Notes under the pieces: model-generated | The model's database searches: none | Seen by the model: the letters and a program-made list of their open reading frames with translations, nothing else | What the model was told of the DNA's origin: nothing | In this document: in pieces, positions 3,301 through 12,709 of the stretch | Position numbering within the stretch: the stretch's first letter is position 1 | Layout: the number at the start of each line of letters is the position of its first letter | Position numbers and translations under genes: made by a program | Assembly (NCBI GenBank): GCA_947632365.1 | Contig: CANROZ010000003.1 | Span: forward strand, 1-38,930 | Source of the DNA: an uncultured Oscillospiraceae bacterium | Lineage (GTDB): Bacteria; Bacillota; Clostridia; Oscillospirales; Oscillospiraceae | Length of the DNA stretch: 38,930 bases | Reading direction: 5' to 3'

Positions 3301-3372
3301 CGCTGGGTTAGAACAGGCAGCAGAGCGGCGTGCCGGGATCAACACCAAGCTGCGGAAGTTCGCGGGTGGTTT

Positions 3373-3588
3373 TTATCTATTCGTCCTGTCATCCGGTGAA
3401 TACGCCACGACGCCAGACAGTGGGCAGTTTAACGTCTGACACAGGGCTTCCAGGGTGTTGGTGGACACAGATTCCCCCGCCTTCAATCGGCGGATGGTAG
3501 AGCTGCTGATGCCGCCTTTGACCTGCAGCGTGTAGGTGGTCGCGCCGCATTTTTCCATCGTCTCCCAAAGAGGTGCGTAAGAGATCAT
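3373..3588 (-). CDS. Small Cro/C1-type (XRE) helix-turn-helix regulator
   Basis: A 71-residue protein that is almost only a DNA-binding domain. MISYAPLWETMEKCGATTYTL is followed by the recognition part GGISSSTIRRLKAGESVSTNTLEALCQTL and a short tail ending VVAYSPDDRTNR. This is the compact HTH_26-like family frequent in Clostridia and their mobile elements. It has no ligand domain, so regulation would be by abundance or partner proteins. It is divergent from the recombinase gene, and the operator-like dyads at 3624-3668 lie between the two. Autoregulation and control of the recombinase are inferred from that arrangement. Confidence 0.85.
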   Translation of the reverse strand: MISYAPLWETMEKCGATTYTLQVKGGISSSTIRRLKAGESVSTNTLEALCQTLNCPLSGVVAYSPDDRTNR

Positions 3589-3623
3589 AGCCCCCAGCCC
3601 TTCCCGCTTGTGATGTCTCCATT

Positions 3624-3668
3624 ATTGCCTATAGTGGGTGTATAGTGTTATAGGCAATATTGCCCATA
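3624..3668. promoter_or_regulatory. Three iterated half-sites between the XRE gene and the recombinase
   Basis: ATTGCCTATA (3624-3633) has an exact inverted copy TATAGGCAAT (3649-3658), which is directly abutted by ATTGCCCATA (3659-3668, one mismatch). The outer pair leaves TTGCCT and TATAGG 18 bases apart on both strands, so the same DNA could serve as a weak promoter in either direction. The symmetry suggests an operator for the neighbouring XRE protein or a binding region of the recombinase. The surrounding stretch, 3589-3822, is AT-richer than the rest of the window and holds no convincing gene. Confidence 0.55.
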
Positions 3669-3763
3669 CAGAGGAGAGGGTACCCGCGCAAAAATGCTCC
3701 TTATCGGTCAAAGTACCGAACAAGGAGCAGAATGGCAAAGTTTTTAAAAGCAAAGAAAAAAGG

Positions 3764-3788
3764 TTTAGTGCGATCAAGGTTTCTTCTA
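3764..3788 (+). repeat. Left inverted repeat flanking the serine recombinase
   Basis: The 25 bases 3764-3788 match the reverse complement of 4455-4481 in two exact blocks (12 and 13 bases), interrupted only by two extra bases in the right copy. The repeat lies 35 bases before the recombinase start codon. Size (25-27 bp), pairing and placement are like the recombination sites of DNA invertases. The CAAGGTTT-like half resembles, from memory, one half of hix-type sites. Confidence 0.8.
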
Positions 3789-3822
3789 AACTAATCGATA
3801 TCATGGATTTGGAGGGAACGAT

Positions 3823-4457
3823 ATGAGCGGATTATATGGTATGTTCGTGTTTCCAGCAGGGACCAGAATACGGATCGCCAGCAGATCGCGATGCATGAGT
3901 ATGGCGTGGCCGACGAGAACATTTTTATGGATAAGCAGTCCGGCAAGGACTTTGATCGGCCCGCCTATCGCCGCCTCATCCGAAGGCTGAAGCCGGACGA
4001 CACCCTGGTCATCAAGAGCATTGACCGACTGGGCCGCAATTATGAGGAGATATTGGAGCAGTGGCGGCTTCTGACCAAGAACAAGCGCGTGGAGATCGTG
4101 GTGCTGGACATGCCGCTGCTGGATACGAGGCGGGGCCGCGATCTGACGGGGACGCTCATCGCGGACATCGTGCTGCAGCTTTTGAGCTATGTGGCCCAGA
4201 CAGAACGGGAGTTCATCCGGCAGCGACAGGCCGAGGGGATCGCCGCGGCGAAAGCCCGGGGCGTCCGGTTCGGACGGCGGCCCATGGAGCGTCCGGCGGC
4301 GTATGAAGCGGTCTGCCGCGACTGGGAACAGGGGCTGCTTACGGCCAGAAAAGCGGCGGAACGTCTTGGCGTGGCGCACAAGACGTTCCTGAAATGGGCA
4401 TCAAAAGATGGTAATGGGGGAAAAAGTAGAACTTTGTCCCCGGCCGAGATCACATAG
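3823..4457 (+). pseudogene. Small serine recombinase (resolvase/invertase family), frameshifted near the 5' end
   Basis: The ATG at 3823 follows GGAGGG and encodes MSGLYG, after which the frame shifts at about 3840. The next frame continues with YVRVSSRDQNTDRQQ, the catalytic-serine motif of serine recombinases. One missing base explains this; bridging it gives 211 residues, the normal size. Other family marks are SIDRLGRNYEEILEQW (active-site arginines), TEREFIRQRQAEGIAAAKARG (long dimer helix) and a C-terminal helix-turn-helix LTARKAAERLGVAHKTFLKW. Without bridging, only an internal ATG at 3891 gives an open frame of 188 residues that lacks the catalytic serine. Either the gene is recently inactivated or the base is a sequence error. 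Inverted repeats bracket it. Confidence 0.85.
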
Positions 4458-4481
4458 AAGAAACCTTGTGATCGCACTAAA
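4455..4481 (-). repeat. Right inverted repeat flanking the serine recombinase
   Basis: These 27 bases are the inverted partner of 3764-3788, with two extra bases (4469-4470) between the matching blocks of 14 and 11 as aligned here. The recombinase stop codon TAG lies inside the repeat (4455-4457). The 124 bases that follow, to 4605, are AT-rich, contain two near-identical 11-12 base direct repeats (from 4496 and from 4521) and hold no gene. A promoter there is possible but I cannot name convincing boxes. Confidence 0.8.
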
Positions 4482-4605
4482 TAATGACGAAATTATAGCA
4501 AATGGTCGATAAAAACACAATAGCAAATTGGTTCCTAATCTCTACTTTAGTTCCCGAACATCGTCCGGGGAGGACGGTATGGTAGCCAATGAATAGTGAG
4601 AGATA

Positions 4606-5577
4606 GTGGACATGATGAATGCTGATCTGGTCGGCCAGCGCTTCGGGATGCTGACAGTGCTGGAGGATTCCGGGCTACGGACAGGCGGCGTCATCCGTTG
4701 GCGCTGTCAATGTGACTGTGGCGGCGAGACGCTGGCGACCCGCAGACAGCTGGAGAGCGGCAACGCGACAAGCTGTGGCTGCGTGCCGAAACAATACGCC
4801 TCCAAAGGGCAGGCGGAGGACCTGACTGGTCGGCGCTTTGGGATGTTGACCGTTTTGCACCGCGCAGAAAACGATAAAAACGGCAAGGTGCGTTGGCGGT
4901 GTAGATGCAGCTGCGGTAGCGAGGTGGTCGTGCGGGCAAATGCTCTCAAAAGCGGCCACGCCCAAAGCTGCGGATGCAAAAGACACGGTGCTGCGTACAA
5001 CAGACACGATCTGACGGGGCGGCGGTTCGGCAGGCTGACGGTGTTATACCATGTCAGCAGGGCGGACCGCGTGAAAAGCAGCTATTGGCACTGCCGCTGT
5101 GACTGCGGGAAAGAGCTGGACGTCCACACGGGGAGCCTTCTGCGGGGCCTGACCCAGAGCTGCGGCTGCTGGAACCGGGCGCAGAGCGGGAAGATGCATG
5201 ACCATCTGCACTATCAGGACGATACTTGTCTGGAGGTCCTCCGGCGCTCCTGTGTGGACACAGGCAGGAACAAGTCCGGTTTCCGGGGCCTTTTTCAGCT
5301 GCCCGATGGCAAATACCGGGCGTCCATCACCTTCCAGGGAAAGCATTATGACCTTGGCCACTATACTTCTTTCGATCGTGCCGTGCAGGCGCGGCTGGAT
5401 GCGGAGGATGTCCTCCATCAGGGCTATATCGCGGCTTACGCGGCCTATGAGAAAAGGGCGGAGGCAGACCCGGCCTGGTCGGCGGCCAACCCGTTTTTCT
5501 ATCAGGTGCAGCGGACGGACGGAGAGTTTATCGTCAATACCAATGCCTGGTATGAAGACGCCGCCAGTCGAACATGA
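4606..5577 (+). CDS. AP2-domain protein with three zinc-finger-like CxC...SCGC repeats
   Basis: The 323-residue product has three tandem copies of one module (residues about 8-59, 72-124, 135-188). Each starts with a GxRFGxLTVL strand, then WRCxCxCG and an ending SCGC, so each carries cysteines suited to bind a metal. An AP2-like DNA-binding domain follows at about 222-272 (NKSGFRGLFQLPDGKYRASI, then HYDLGHYTSFDRAVQARLDAE). Such modules occur in phage and mobile-element proteins, often beside HNH nucleases, but no nuclease motif is visible here. The start is uncertain: GTG at 4606 or ATG at 4612 or 4615, with no strong ribosome site. A DNA-binding role is likely; control of the downstream polymer genes or a relation to the recombinase is conjecture. 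Confidence 0.8.
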   Translation: MDMMNADLVGQRFGMLTVLEDSGLRTGGVIRWRCQCDCGGETLATRRQLESGNATSCGCVPKQYASKGQAEDLTGRRFGMLTVLHRAENDKNGKVRWRCRCSCGSEVVVRANALKSGHAQSCGCKRHGAAYNRHDLTGRRFGRLTVLYHVSRADRVKSSYWHCRCDCGKELDVHTGSLLRGLTQSCGCWNRAQSGKMHDHLHYQDDTCLEVLRRSCVDTGRNKSGFRGLFQLPDGKYRASITFQGKHYDLGHYTSFDRAVQARLDAEDVLHQGYIAAYAAYEKRAEADPAWSAANPFFYQVQRTDGEFIVNTNAWYEDAASRT

Positions 5578-5699: not shown

Positions 5700-6887
5700 A
5701 TGAGATTCTTTGGTACCCGCGTGGGACGGGCGGCAAAGCGCATGATCATCGTGTGTGTGCAGTGCTGTCTGAAACTTTTTTATTTTCTGCCGATAAATGA
5801 CCGACGGATATTGTTCTGTTCTTTTGGCGGCGATCAGTATTCCGACAATCCCAGGCGTATGAATGAGTACCTTGCGGCGCACGGCGGGCAGGCGCTGGAG
5901 TTTGTATGGGGATTCAAAGATCCAAAGAAGTATCGGGACGTGCCCGGCATCAAGGCGGTCCGGTACTATTCGCCCCGTTGGTTCTATCATGCGCTGACCG
6001 CCGCTGTAGTCATCACAAATATAGGCTTCACCAGGATCACGCCCAAGAGGAGAGGGCAGTTTTTCCTGAATACTTGGCATGGCGGCGGCGCCTACAAGCG
6101 GATCGGGCCGGAGATATTTGAGCGCAGTGAGGCAGAGTGCCGCTCGCAGCACAAAAATGAGCAAAAGACAGACCTGTACCTGACCAGCTCCGAGTACTTC
6201 ACCCATTTCGCGCTGCGGCAGGACATGGGCTATCGGGGAGAGGTCCTGAACAGCGGCATGCCCCGGAACGACATTTTCTTTTCCGCCGAGCAGATCACCC
6301 GGGCCTCCCAAAAGGTGCGGCAGGCGCTGGGCCTCAAAGGATATGTTGTCCTCTATGCGCCGACGTTCCGAGGTGCGACCGATCGAGGCTACAAGATCGA
6401 TTACCGTTTCCCCTACGGGCAGGCGCTGGATGGGCTGCGGGAGCGGTTCGGGGAGACGGTCACGATCCTGAAACGGGCGCATCATAGATGCGTGATGATT
6501 GACAGCTCTCCGGAAGAGGTGATGGACGTGTCCGACTGGCCGGATATGCAGGAGCTGCTGTGCGCGGCGGACATGCTCATCACGGATTACTCCTCCAGCA
6601 TGTGGGACTTCGCGCTGCTGGGGCGGCCTTGTCTGCTGTATCAAAATGATCTGGAGGCCTATGAGCGGGAGCGGGGCATCTGCATATCGGTGGAGCAGTG
6701 GCCCGGCATCTCCTGCCGGAGCGACAGTGAGCTACTGGACGCGATCCGGACGTTGGATGAGAGGGCCTGCGCAGAGAGGGCCAGAGAACATCTGCGGACC
6801 TACGGGTCCTATGAGACGGGAACAGCCACAGAGCAGGCTTGCCAACGGGTCATGGCCCATATCGAAGGCCGACTGGCCAAGTCGTAG
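5700..6887 (+). CDS. CDP-glycerol glycerophosphotransferase family protein (first copy)
   Basis: A 395-residue TagB/TagF-type polymerase or primase that transfers glycerol- or ribitol-phosphate from a CDP-activated donor. Family motifs in order are NTWHGGGAYKRIG (the catalytic-His region, WHG), SSEYFTHFALRQDMGY, GMPRNDIFF, VLYAPTFRG, and the donor-binding ADMLITDYSSSMWDFALLGRPCLLY. The N terminus has a hydrophobic, basic stretch (residues 12-30) that would bind the membrane surface, as in wall-teichoic-acid enzymes. The start ATG has AGGA ten bases before it. It opens a run of six closely spaced genes through the exporter at 12709. Whether it primes or elongates is unknown. Confidence 0.9.
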   Translation: MRFFGTRVGRAAKRMIIVCVQCCLKLFYFLPINDRRILFCSFGGDQYSDNPRRMNEYLAAHGGQALEFVWGFKDPKKYRDVPGIKAVRYYSPRWFYHALTAAVVITNIGFTRITPKRRGQFFLNTWHGGGAYKRIGPEIFERSEAECRSQHKNEQKTDLYLTSSEYFTHFALRQDMGYRGEVLNSGMPRNDIFFSAEQITRASQKVRQALGLKGYVVLYAPTFRGATDRGYKIDYRFPYGQALDGLRERFGETVTILKRAHHRCVMIDSSPEEVMDVSDWPDMQELLCAADMLITDYSSSMWDFALLGRPCLLYQNDLEAYERERGICISVEQWPGISCRSDSELLDAIRTLDERACAERAREHLRTYGSYETGTATEQACQRVMAHIEGRLAKS

Positions 6888-6917: not shown

Positions 6918-7673
6918 ATGGAAAATATAGCGATCATTTTTGCCGGAGGGACCGGCGAGCGGATGGGGGACAACACCGTCCCCAAGCAATTTCTCACCGT
7001 AGAGGGCAAACCAGTTTTGGTCTATACGCTGGAGCCGTTCCAGCGTCATGAGGAAATCGACGGGATCATCCTGGTGGCGCTGCGGGAGTGGCTCGACTAC
7101 TGCCATGAGATGATTGTCTCCTGGCGTCTGGACAAGGTGCTGGCGGTGGTGCCAGGGGGCGTGAGCAGCCAGGAGTCCATTCGGCTGGGGCTGGAGGCCG
7201 TGCAGGCGCTCTGCGGGGAGGACGTTGTGACGCTGATCCACGACGGGGTGCGTCCGCTGATCGATAGCGGGACCATCACCCGCTGTATACGCAGTGTGAA
7301 GCAATACGGCTCGGCGGTCACGGTATCGCCGCAGATGGAGACGGTCCTGTACGGAGAGACTGCGGATGGGCCGTGCCGGATCATCGAACGGGACAGGTGC
7401 CAGGTGGCCCGGGCGCCCCAGTGCTTTTATCTGCGGGATATCCTGGCGGCCCACCGCAGGGCCATGCTCGACCATCGGCTTCGGTTCATCGACTCTGCCA
7501 GCCTGATGCAGTATTACGGATACGCGCTCCATTCGGTCCGGGGGCCGATGGAGAACATCAAGATCACCACAGCCCTGGACTTTCAGGTGTTTTGCGCCAT
7601 TGTGACAGCCGGGGGGGTACAGCGTTGGATATCGAGGGATGAAGGAGAGGAAATGCCGGACCATGATCCCTGA
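6918..7673 (+). CDS. IspD/TarI-family cytidylyltransferase, probably pentitol-phosphate specific
   Basis: A 251-residue nucleotidyltransferase with the CTP-binding loop AGGTGERMGDN, the PKQF motif, and HDGVRPL in the middle, all typical of IspD/TarI/IspF-like enzymes. Its place between two CDP-polyol phosphotransferase genes argues for TarI activity (CTP plus ribitol-5-phosphate or a related polyol phosphate to the CDP-polyol) instead of the isoprenoid IspD role. The C-terminal 30 residues, after ITTALDFQVF, are longer than in compact TarI proteins. Its last 11 bases overlap the next gene. Confidence 0.85.
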   Translation: MENIAIIFAGGTGERMGDNTVPKQFLTVEGKPVLVYTLEPFQRHEEIDGIILVALREWLDYCHEMIVSWRLDKVLAVVPGGVSSQESIRLGLEAVQALCGEDVVTLIHDGVRPLIDSGTITRCIRSVKQYGSAVTVSPQMETVLYGETADGPCRIIERDRCQVARAPQCFYLRDILAAHRRAMLDHRLRFIDSASLMQYYGYALHSVRGPMENIKITTALDFQVFCAIVTAGGVQRWISRDEGEEMPDHDP

Positions 7674-9653: not shown

Positions 9654-10943
9654 ATGAAAGATAGATGGAGAGACCACTTGCCTCCCGCGATCCGCAGGCC
9701 GCTGGGCAGGATAAAGGCGCTGCTGTTCAGCGTTCCGATGCGCATACTGTATCCCTTGTTTGCCCGCCGCCCTATCCAGGCCGACAAGATCGTGTTCGAC
9801 AACTACCTGGGCAGAGGCTACGGCTGCAATCCCAAGTATGTGGTCCAAAAACTGATCGAGCTGGGAGCGGATGGGTATGATCTTGTCTGGCTCGTCTCCC
9901 GGGAGCATATGGAGCACAGCGAACTGCCGCCACAGGTGCGGCCTGTGCGGCATGGCTCTCTGCGGTCGTATTACGAATATGCCACCGCACAGGTCTGGGT
10001 CAGCAACTATCCTAAGATGCTTTTCGTGAGAAACGGCTTGAAAAAGCGGACCGGACAGATTTTTATCCAGACGTGTCACGGCTCCCTGGGTATCAAGAAG
10101 ATCGACGGAGACGTATCGCTGTTCACGCGAAATAAGAGATGGCTCCGGGCGGCGATCGCTGCCTCAGAGATGACGGACTGGTGGATATCGAACAGTGCTT
10201 TTGAAAACAACGTCTATAAGAGCGCCTTTTGGGGCGTCACAGACGAAAAGATACTGCTATACGGCCACCCCCGCAACGATATCTTCTTTGACGATCAGAT
10301 GATGGTACATGCCCGGCAAAAAGTGGACGAGCGCTACGGGACGGGCGGAAAAAAGTTGCTTCTATATGCCCCCACGTTCCGTAACAAAGTCGTGAGAGGC
10401 CGCAGCAGGATCGAGCAGCGGCGGGAGGTTTTCGGACTCAACTATCCAGAACTGCTGGCGCATATGCAAGGGCGCTTCGGCGGCGAATGGACAGTGCTGG
10501 TGCGGCTGCATCCCCAGATAGCGGATATGGTGGAGGAGATCATCCCTCCGATGCCGAATGTGATCGACGCCACCGCCTACATGGACATGCAGGAGCTGCT
10601 GGCGGCGGCGGACTGCCTTATCACCGACTACTCCAGCTGCGCCTTCGACTTTGTGCTGACCCGGCGGCCCGTATTCCTGTATGCCACGGATATCCAGGAA
10701 TTTGACACGTCGAGAGGCTTCTATTATCCACTGACGTCCACGCCGTTCCCGTTGGCTCAGAATAACGCGGAGCTGCAGAGCAATATCGACGCCTTTGATG
10801 AGGCGGCGTATCTGCAAAAGGTCGAGGCATTTTTGGTTGAAAAGGGCTGCATAGAGGACGGCCACGCCAGCGCGCGGGTGGCGGCTCTGATCGAGAGGAT
10901 AACGGAGAAAGGTGCCTTTCGGTCGCCGGACGGTAAGCAATAG
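9654..10943 (+). CDS. CDP-glycerol glycerophosphotransferase family protein (second copy)
   Basis: A 429-residue relative of the gene at 5700, with QTCHGSLGIKKIDGDVS (catalytic-His loop), SNSAFENNVYKSAF, YGHPRNDIFF, LLYAPTFRN, VRLHPQI (second histidine, as in TagF) and AADCLITDYSSCAFDFVLTRRPVFLY. The sequence is clearly divergent from the first copy, so the two enzymes likely do different steps (for example primer addition and chain extension, or two donors). It begins 10 bases after the radical SAM stop, showing an operon. Confidence 0.9.
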   Translation: MKDRWRDHLPPAIRRPLGRIKALLFSVPMRILYPLFARRPIQADKIVFDNYLGRGYGCNPKYVVQKLIELGADGYDLVWLVSREHMEHSELPPQVRPVRHGSLRSYYEYATAQVWVSNYPKMLFVRNGLKKRTGQIFIQTCHGSLGIKKIDGDVSLFTRNKRWLRAAIAASEMTDWWISNSAFENNVYKSAFWGVTDEKILLYGHPRNDIFFDDQMMVHARQKVDERYGTGGKKLLLYAPTFRNKVVRGRSRIEQRREVFGLNYPELLAHMQGRFGGEWTVLVRLHPQIADMVEEIIPPMPNVIDATAYMDMQELLAAADCLITDYSSCAFDFVLTRRPVFLYATDIQEFDTSRGFYYPLTSTPFPLAQNNAELQSNIDAFDEAAYLQKVEAFLVEKGCIEDGHASARVAALIERITEKGAFRSPDGKQ

Positions 10944-10972
10944 CGAAGGTCTGCCCGTACAGGATAAGAACG

Positions 10973-12709
10973 ATGATGTTGAAGGATATTTTTTCACTCA
11001 TAGGCCCCAAACGAAGAAACCAGATGCTGGCGCTGATCCCTGCCATGCTGCTGGCCTCCCTGCTGGAGATAGCGGGACTGACGATGGTGGTGTCGGTCTG
11101 CGCTGCCCTGGCGGACAGCGCATGGGTGGGGGGAAACCCGGTCATGGTGTGGCTGCGCGGCGCGCTGCATATAGGCTCGGAGACGTCGATGACAACGGTG
11201 ATCCTCCTAGCGCTGATCGCGCTCTATGCCTTCAAGCTGTTCTATCTGGCCTGGGAAAACTACATGGTGGCGAGGTTCGTCCGCATCACCCGGCATGAGG
11301 TGTCTTGCCGCCTGTGCCAACGCATCGTTCACAGCCCGTATCCCTTTTTTACCCGGCACAGCACAGCGGAGCTGCAAAACCTGCTGGGGCAGGATACGAC
11401 CCAGTTCACCAATGGGCTCAACGCATATATGCAGATATTCATGGAGGCCCTGGTCGTGCTGGGGATGGGCATCTGTCTTATGCTGATCGACCCGGCCATG
11501 ACGCTGTGTTTGACCGCCGGGATCGCCTCCCTGACGGTGTTGATCCGCGTGATCCTTATGCGGCCGATACGCAGCGCCTCCCAGCGGCAGCGGGACGCGA
11601 ACCGCAGACGTTGGAAATGGCTGCACCACATCGTGGGCGGCATCAAGGACATCAAGACCGGACGCCATGAGGACTATTTCGCGGGGCACTTTGCCGAGGC
11701 CAGCGAGGAGTGCGCCCGCTCCGATTATCTGCGGCAGTTCTGGACCAAGCTGCCCACATTGTTCATCGAGAGCGTCATGGTGCTCACCGTGCTGCTGTAT
11801 ATCCTTTTCTTCGTGCGGGCCGGGAAACAGCTGCTGGATCATCTGCCCAGCCTCTCCGCCCTGGCGTGGACGGCGGTGCGCCTTTTGCCGGCATGCAGCC
11901 GGATCAATACCAGTCTGACGGCGATCAACTATTCCAAGCCCTCCGTGGAGGCGATCTGCCGCATGATGGAGGAGACGTCGGCCCAGGAGGCGGGGGCGCG
12001 CTCTCCCCAGACGGACGTGGCCATCCGGGAGGGCATCGCCCTGCGGCGGGTATCCTATTGCTACGAGGGCAGGCCGGACCCCGTACTGTGGGACGTGGAT
12101 ATGGAGATAGCGGCGGGAACGTCGGTGGGCGTCATCGGCCCGTCCGGCGCGGGAAAGACCACGCTGCTGGACGTGCTTTTGGGGCTGCTGGTGCCGGAGC
12201 GGGGCGAGGTGCTCATCGACGGGATACCCATTGACCAGTGCGCGGAGAGCTATCTGCAAAGGGTGGCCTACGTGCCCCAGGACACGTTTTTGCTGGACGA
12301 CACCATCCGCAGCAATGTGGCCCTGGGGGAGGAGCCTGGCGAGACGGACGACGGCCGCGTGTGGGCGGCCCTGGAGCAGGCCGATCTGGCCCAGATGGTC
12401 CGGAGACTTCCCGAAGGCCTGGACACATATGTGGGCGAGCGCGGCATTCGGCTCTCCGGCGGCGAGCGGCAGCGCTTAGGCCTGGCCCGGGCCATGTATC
12501 AGGACCCGGCTCTGATCGTGTTTGACGAGGCGACCTCCTCCCTGGACCTGGAGACGGAGGCCGCTGTGCTGCGGTCCATCTTCCGTCTGCAGAGAAAAAA
12601 GACGCTCATCATCGTCTCCCACCGCCTGTCGGCGATCGAGCACTGCGACGTGGTATACCGCGTCCAGGACGGAACGGTGCGGCGGGAAAAGCCGGAGCCG
12701 GGATCGTAA
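10973..12709 (+). CDS. ABC exporter, membrane and ATPase domains fused (glycan flippase type)
   Basis: A 578-residue half-transporter of the MsbA/PglK build. Six membrane segments lie within residues 15-310, followed by the nucleotide-binding domain: Walker A GPSGAGKTT (about 389-397), Q-loop VAYVPQDTFLLDD, signature LSGGERQRLGLARAM and Walker B ALIVFDEATSSLD, then the His-switch VSHRLSA. It would act as a homodimer. As last gene of the polymer operon it probably flips or exports the lipid-linked polymer or its precursor; classical teichoic acids use a two-protein TagGH exporter instead. Start is ATG 10973, with a second ATG directly after it. Confidence 0.9.
   Translation: MMLKDIFSLIGPKRRNQMLALIPAMLLASLLEIAGLTMVVSVCAALADSAWVGGNPVMVWLRGALHIGSETSMTTVILLALIALYAFKLFYLAWENYMVARFVRITRHEVSCRLCQRIVHSPYPFFTRHSTAELQNLLGQDTTQFTNGLNAYMQIFMEALVVLGMGICLMLIDPAMTLCLTAGIASLTVLIRVILMRPIRSASQRQRDANRRRWKWLHHIVGGIKDIKTGRHEDYFAGHFAEASEECARSDYLRQFWTKLPTLFIESVMVLTVLLYILFFVRAGKQLLDHLPSLSALAWTAVRLLPACSRINTSLTAINYSKPSVEAICRMMEETSAQEAGARSPQTDVAIREGIALRRVSYCYEGRPDPVLWDVDMEIAAGTSVGVIGPSGAGKTTLLDVLLGLLVPERGEVLIDGIPIDQCAESYLQRVAYVPQDTFLLDDTIRSNVALGEEPGETDDGRVWAALEQADLAQMVRRLPEGLDTYVGERGIRLSGGERQRLGLARAMYQDPALIVFDEATSSLDLETEAAVLRSIFRLQRKKTLIIVSHRLSAIEHCDVVYRVQDGTVRREKPEPGS

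Follow-up and report, generated by a model that had tools for sequence, protein, structure and literature searches.

An invertible promoter beside a serine recombinase of gut Clostridia, and a possible RNA switch that would read its orientation

Introduction

A gene for a small serine recombinase, bracketed by inverted repeats of 25 and 27 bp and situated upstream of a surface-polymer operon, raises the question of what the repeats do. In a first-pass annotation of the window (the whole stretch of DNA analysed, 38,930 bases) they were taken for the inversion sites of a Hin-like switch that might be locked in one state. The present analysis places the crossover sites elsewhere and suggests an explanation in two layers, a DNA inversion switch and an RNA switch on the recombinase that would read its orientation; the two layers together are given an even chance. 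Invertible promoters are commonly seen as coin flips; a switch of the proposed type, if real, would have feedback and memory, and its bias might be predictable from sequence.

The comparisons draw on genomes of the genus, on named genome contigs (the best 80 of 579 relatives) and on 27 viral contigs. These contain 148 loci with a recombinase match, 129 of them distinct. Matches to the recombinase, some of them weak, are found in 31 of 35 genomes of the genus, a count that includes the window's own, and the nearest named records among the best 80 of the 579 relatives are uncultured Oscillospiraceae and Clostridia from the Lapin series of MAGs. Loci are designated by L and genomes by G numbers.

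The recombinase gene

The recombinase (3822–4457, plus strand) is of the DNA invertase class. Its catalytic domain matches PF00239 (E = 7e-31), and the protein is similar to PHROG 125, a DNA invertase family (E = 1.1e-52). Matches to structure chains include Sin (5.4e-28), DNA invertases (8e-19) and also gamma-delta resolvase. Pfam gives no helix-turn-helix match at the C-terminus, and the alignment with gamma-delta resolvase ends at residue 191 of 211. The score against the Mpi master invertase model NF009949 (47.4 bits) does not reach the curated cut-off of 272.

An open reading frame runs from 3822 to the stop codon at 4455–4457, and the ATG at 3823, which is preceded by a Shine-Dalgarno (SD) sequence GGAGG at 3811–3815 (plus strand), lies one base off this main frame. 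The one-base frameshift reported earlier is thus real as the sequence stands. All four aligned relatives have one additional base in the first ten codons and keep the frame there. The dN/dS ratio is 0.095 against L076 (a G013 contig), 0.084 against G002 and 0.093 against L077, and the 570 nt compared are free of stop codons. With such ratios against three relatives, the frameshift may be either a recent event or an assembly error, a single-base slip in a draft being just as likely. Owing to the frameshift, a working recombinase may be absent from the present assembly. A second, intact copy that might act in trans, as had been envisaged, was not found in the 82%-complete draft genome.

Crossover sites and the invertible segment

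When the regions downstream of the recombinase are set side by side, a conserved promoter that faces the recombinase is seen, flanked by short inverted sites, one within the 3′ end of the recombinase gene and one past the promoter. Local alignment recovers such site pairs at many loci; the pair in the window, where the sites have diverged, is not among them. A search for 26-bp pairs, which required a matching centre, gave 56 of the 129 distinct loci that pass the site-pair filter. This rule was absent from the side-by-side and local-alignment views, and since it is built into the search, the matching centre of the pairs found in this way is not independent evidence. Of the 73 loci outside the filter, 14 have no pair or too short a downstream sequence. 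Some of the 56 pairs are false, e.g., that of L131, where the listed sites differ from those used in the flip test described below, and false pairs add noise to the tests of leader similarity, left/leader match and SD opening.

A site profile was built from 192 oriented sites of relatives, with consensus GGATAAAAAAGTATACTTTTTTATCC. The window's own locus and L037, L038, L076 and L077 were left out, and L039 and L040 (82% identical) were kept. Over the 38,930-base window this profile places site A (4416–4441) first with 22.7 bits and site B (4530–4555) second with 21.1 bits; the next place scores 10.4. The ranking is the firmest result of the analysis. Site A is an imperfect palindrome with its centre at 4428–4429, in the 3′ end of the recombinase gene, and B is its inverted partner, centred at 4542–4543; both are 26-bp dyad-symmetric sites with a matching 2-bp centre. 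Only 16 of the 26 positions are shared by the two sites, and the pair by itself is matched by 1 of 60 simple shuffles. The 25/27-bp repeats, previously proposed as crossover sites, rank 228 (left) and 1302 (right) on the same profile, even as the best among start positions 3755–3789 and 4452–4474, and on these ranks they are rejected in that role. The longest visible repeat around a recombinase is not necessarily the crossover site.

The segment between A and B, 116 bp with both site centres (4428–4543), contains a promoter on the minus strand (4492–4520) that points left, with a −10 sequence TATAAT (4492–4497), a spacer of 17 nt and a −35 sequence TTGTGT (4515–4520). A simple promoter scan omits it because the −35 fits TTGACA at only three of six positions. 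The position of the promoter between inverted sites is the same in relatives. As assembled, it faces away from the polymer operon and is antisense to the recombinase, an orientation termed OFF. A simple scan for intrinsic terminators lists none in the segment. At L051 (G020:C72), where no A/B pair passes the filter, a rightward promoter of the form TTGCAT-17-TATAAT is found just past the recombinase.

The 56 filtered loci comprise 43 in OFF and 13 in the opposite, ON orientation; with a promoter score gap of 2 or more, the numbers are 33 and 8. Opposite-strand matches between relatives fall into three groups (L057 with L091; L144 and L154 with L131; L105 with L158, L114 and L118), and between L057 and L091 the match covers 98 nt at 83%. 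When one member of a pair has its segment flipped from site centre to site centre, the alignment score rises in all three pairs tested among these matches: from 206 to 277 for L091/L057, from 371.5 to 437 for L131/L144 and from 280 to 316.5 for L158/L105. Contigs also tend to end here: in the zone from +500 to +820, 13 ends are found at 90 loci and 1.47 are expected, in a zone picked once contig ends had been seen close to the gene, and with the proviso that paralogue repeats can break contigs as well. The contigs of L076, L092 and L112 end in the core of site A and that of L131 in the core of site B; L076 (contig G013:C80) is the nearest relative.

The locus is thus almost certainly an invertible promoter of known kind, with relatives that carry the segment in both orientations. 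The kind of switch was named correctly in the first-pass annotation, as a Hin-like invertible promoter that precedes a surface-polymer operon, and the location of its sites was not. Both orientations in relatives, which that annotation had suggested looking for, are found for the A/B segment in the three flipped pairs.

The repeat pair

The two repeats, 3764–3788 and 4455–4481 (features on the plus strand), are identical as inverted copies save for two extra bases in the right one, as had been described. The pair scores 21, and the maximum over 200 shuffles is 12.5. In the 1.77-Mb draft genome the repeat pattern has two matches, both of them the pair itself, and a reversed control pattern has none. 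The repeats were said to enclose the recombinase gene, and they do, with the refinement that the right repeat opens with the three bases of the stop codon (4455–4457). The left copy is 35 to 59 nt 5′ of the start codon, in the 5′ leader, where it is presumed to hold a toehold and an anti-SD arm. The right copy is within the invertible segment, downstream of the segment promoter, and would be a putative trigger on the recombinase mRNA of the OFF orientation.

The two-base difference had been read as a sign of a locked switch. At least two gap positions in the left copy recur in own-locus alignments of L037, L039, L055, L106, L146 and L077, and at the remaining loci the left/right difference is none, one or reversed. 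As it recurs at the relatives' own loci, the difference does not represent decay. Moreover, in L096 and L146, both ON and with a strong match, the two copies are direct and not inverted, as expected if the right copy moves with the promoter. Since the right repeat lies inside the segment and the copies are direct in ON loci, the two-base difference says nothing about locking. The pair is kept together with the recombinase in part of the family, and the first-pass reading is not refuted on this count. The repeats probably represent a second layer, a locus-specific sequence present once in the recombinase 5′ leader and once in the segment in this part of the family.

Other roles were considered for this region. 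The left copy as a sigma-70 promoter was dropped, the −35 not being consistent across loci by eye. A mobile cassette was suggested by homology with G002 that ends near the repeats, but the site profile and the flipped relatives account better for the region. Rfam gives one match over 3500–4700, which is below threshold (SscA, 22.3 bits against 60).

Pairing in the recombinase leader

In the leader, an anti-SD arm at 3778–3791 (plus strand) is predicted to pair with the recombinase SD at −13.5 kcal/mol, and the leader fold has a z-score of −2.97. Over 88 loci, leader:SD pairing averages −10.62 kcal/mol within a locus and −8.79 between loci. The reverse complement of the left copy, used as a control, also pairs with the SD in excess, more weakly (−9.32 against −8.75, p = 0.0037), a small excess which indicates that other factors contribute to the signal. 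The anti-SD paired sequences vary by locus (GGTTTCC, GCTTTCTGTA, ACCGCC and GGCTC types), and paired leader and SD sequences change together, e.g., AAGTTTTCTCTA with AGGAGAAAACT in L104 and CGCTTTCTGTAGA with TTACAGGAGGCA in L116. Among substitutions, those compatible with G-U pairing have no clear excess (15 against 10, p = 0.21).

The sequence copied into the segment follows the same locus-by-locus pattern. Read in the promoter direction, the segment leader scores 10.46 against the recombinase leader of its own locus and 7.97 against those of other loci (41 loci), a similarity reached in none of 20,000 permutations; the opposite-direction control gives 7.90 against 7.81 (p = 0.37). The left copy itself differs from locus to locus. 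With composition controlled, its match to the segment leader is significant at p ≤ 0.05 in 16 of the 41 loci and at 0.01 in 11, and in the opposite direction in none. A second set, the 15 loci left by the filter out of 36 new ones, replicates this match in part. Three of the 15 match at p ≤ 0.01 and one does so in the control (L195, which is also among the three); the group test (p = 0.017) is no better than the opposite-direction control (p = 0.010), and the paired comparison gives a Wilcoxon p of 0.86.

The two sets together have 19 significant loci, with an SD identifiable in 18. In 16 of these 18, where 5.4 are expected, the match starts 5′ of the anti-SD arm and has an overlap of at least 5 nt with it; L154 and L065 do not fit, and L151 is without an identified start. 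An earlier version of the test used 20 hand-picked loci, 19 of which fit, and was repeated on every significant locus. Judged by sequence, the duplicated stretch is laid out as a toehold plus a stem.

The complementarity between the 5′ leader and the 3′ end in the window is calculated at −36.4 kcal/mol in OFF, with a two-base bulge, and at −13.4 in ON; it is the anti-SD arm, not the SD itself, to which the OFF 3′ end is complementary. When the 5′ and 3′ parts are joined and folded, the predicted unpaired fraction of the window's SD is 0.66 in OFF and 0.01 in ON. Over 46 of the 56 loci (the others having no identified SD or a site distance above 200), the mean predicted opening is 0.32 in OFF and 0.26 in ON (Wilcoxon p = 2e-4). 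OFF exceeds ON by at least 0.10 in 10 of the 46 and the reverse is seen in one, L154; in three of the ten (L069, L120 and L123) the difference is a loss in ON, with no gain in OFF. Full-length mRNA was folded for nine hand-chosen loci, two of which were controls. The prediction for the window is 0.25 in OFF and 0.01 in ON, and an effect is also found in L100, L146 and L055, and weakly in L096; two of the seven loci (L037 and L056) show none, and the controls are unchanged.

The toehold part of the window's leader is only partly single-stranded in the prediction (mean 0.34 unpaired). A promoter scan upstream of the left copy gives one candidate, at 3608–3635, where 1.5 are expected by chance, and this candidate is not convincing.

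Proposed mechanism

In the mechanism proposed here, the recombinase would exchange sites A and B and flip the 116-bp segment with its one promoter. In the flipped, ON state the promoter would face the AP2/HNH-like gene and then the polymer operon. A hairpin in the recombinase leader would cover the SD by way of the anti-SD arm. In OFF, the 3′ end of the same mRNA, with the 4455–4481 sequence, would be complementary to the arm and to ∼14 nt upstream of it, a possible toehold, and the long 5′/3′ duplex might displace the hairpin and free the SD. In ON, the mRNA 3′ end would hold this sequence in the sense direction, no such pairing would form and the SD would stay covered. The recombinase would be made mainly from OFF, so that OFF-to-ON inversion would be favoured and ON then held. 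That one mRNA spans both ends, refolds and does so with this sign is what we infer from the complementarity and layout.

The RNA layer, i.e., an inversion-gated, toehold-like switch that would make recombinase synthesis depend on promoter orientation, is a hypothesis drawn from sequence comparison and folding, and we consider it about equally probable to be right or wrong. Slightly less probable, a little short of even, is the wider proposal that a natural toehold switch, gated in cis by DNA inversion and giving a memory of orientation, operates as a locus-specific lock and key in a subset of the invertons with serine recombinases in gut Clostridia. If true, this would represent a natural cis-acting toehold-like device and an explanation, open to test, for the uneven balance of ON and OFF in gut Clostridia. 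The OFF majority among the assemblies counts against the RNA model, since the model favours OFF-to-ON inversion. The frameshift, if genuine, would silence the recombinase in this assembly and would also speak against the model here.

Alternative explanations

The strongest alternative, although an unlikely one, keeps the same invertible promoter and regards the repeats as DNA operators for a locus-specific binding protein, in the simplest case the recombinase itself, which would bind close to its own promoter and next to site A, with autoregulation or an accessory site as the function. The locus-specific identity of the two copies would fit a site in co-evolution with the recombinase of its locus, and the missing G-U bias is neutral in this respect. 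In L105, L145 and L158, a site upstream of the recombinase, over a −10-like stretch, has, by eye, the appearance of a crossover site whose centre is 4 nt rather than 2 nt long; this is possibly an autoregulatory operator that binds without recombining, and it would suit such a reading. On the other hand, neither repeat in the window resembles a crossover site (ranks 228 and 1302), and operators do not predict pairing of the leader with the SD of its own gene, nor a copied stretch that goes along with the anti-SD arm when anti-SD sequences differ between loci.

It is rather improbable that the 5′/3′ duplex forms but acts in the opposite direction, keeping the recombinase low in OFF through a block on the mRNA or through RNase III cleavage. 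There is a precedent in icaR, where, as far as the accessible text of the source goes, 5′/3′ pairing hinders translation initiation and creates an RNase III substrate (PMC3868564), and low recombinase in OFF would fit the excess of OFF among assemblies. The 3′ copy in the window is, however, complementary to the anti-SD arm and not to the SD, so that release of the SD is the simplest prediction.

A dead or locked switch, with the recombinase frameshifted, the repeats decayed and function lost, is very improbable. The one-base frameshift, the lack of another copy in the 82%-complete draft and the agreement of A and B at only 16 of 26 positions are what might be expected of it, but the dN/dS of about 0.09 with no stop in the compared 570 nt, the high profile scores kept by both sites and the recurrence of the two-base difference in relatives are not, and a single-base slip in the draft assembly is equally likely.

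Inversion of the whole recombinase gene between the 25/27-bp repeats is scarcely credible: inverted repeats of about fitting size do flank the gene, and the Hin gene sits in its own invertible segment according to the available part of the source (PMC5903667), but A and B form a far better site pair, the copies are direct in the ON loci L096 and L146, and it is at A/B that three pairs of relatives are flipped and contigs break.

Comparison with known systems

The inversion layer has much in common with Hin/Gin invertases and with invertons. A small serine recombinase adjoins a promoter segment with inverted 26-bp sites that have a 2-bp centre, as the hix and gix sites do, and the switch is positioned upstream of a surface-polymer operon. 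Unlike Hin/Gin systems, site A is within the recombinase coding sequence, and there is a presumed RNA lock in the recombinase leader with its key in the invertible segment. Synthetic toehold switches consist of a toehold, a stem that hides the SD and a trigger complementary to toehold and stem; the device proposed here would differ in being natural, in acting in cis and in having its trigger in one DNA orientation only.

Two parts of the proposed RNA layer are already known from other systems, to the extent covered by the accessible parts of the sources. In Escherichia coli, inversion of fimS connects fimE to, or disconnects it from, its Rho-dependent terminator (PMC9993118, PMC5386303). There, too, the recombinase gene adjoins the switch and the 3′ end of its mRNA changes with orientation; fimE differs in encoding a tyrosine recombinase and in being controlled through termination and mRNA stability, not through 5′/3′ pairing that opens an SD. 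In Staphylococcus aureus, the 3′ end of icaR mRNA pairs with its own 5′ leader and sets translation (PMC3868564). The icaR 3′ end is fixed, covers the SD and represses, whereas in the window the 3′ end would be switched by DNA inversion and would cover the anti-SD arm, with predicted activation. No description of inversion-gated pairing of a recombinase mRNA was found in the open-licence literature searched; a key within invertible DNA that opens an SD, as combined here, was not met there.

Downstream genes and left flank

The first gene past the switch (4606–5577, plus strand) encodes repeated WRCxCxCG-like units. It had been called an AP2 DNA-binding protein; its C-terminal part is AP2-like by eye only, the match obtained is to PHROG 374, an HNH endonuclease family (E = 7.5e-62), and no Pfam family exceeds its cut-off. 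Genes with WRCxCxCG-like units are seen by eye after the recombinase in the window, L039 and L040, and two stretches downstream in L038 match the window's gene.

The polymer operon that follows is as previously described and, by protein family, is a surface-polymer operon. It encodes, on the plus strand, two CDP-glycerol glycerophosphotransferase family proteins, a TarF-like one at 5700–6887 (PF04464, E = 1.8e-69; 163.9 bits against the TarF model, below the cut-off of 550) and a second at 9654–10,943 (PF04464, E = 2e-66), an IspD/ribitol-5-phosphate cytidylyltransferase-like protein at 6918–7673 (PF01128, E = 4.9e-36) and an ABC transporter at 10,973–12,709 (PF00005 and PF00664), nearest to PglK and MsbA models with NCBIfam scores below the curated cut-offs. 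A sugar-nucleotide epimerase/dehydratase and a radical SAM protein are also encoded. The same ABC transporter (window positions 10,939–12,677) is found in G002 (L037), ∼6.5 kb downstream of the recombinase start. The stretch between recombinase and transporter there is unlike that of the window, and G002 possibly has the same polymer locus with its cargo replaced.

To the left of the recombinase, 3368–3682 contains a short minus-strand open reading frame that by eye has the look of an XRE-type helix-turn-helix protein. This flank has no match in the G002 stretch, and it is matched beside the recombinase in L036 (G013), L050 (G006) and L039 (G011). L076 shares the flank with the window, and the left flank of L036, the G013 copy, is 93% identical to that of the window over 393 nt.
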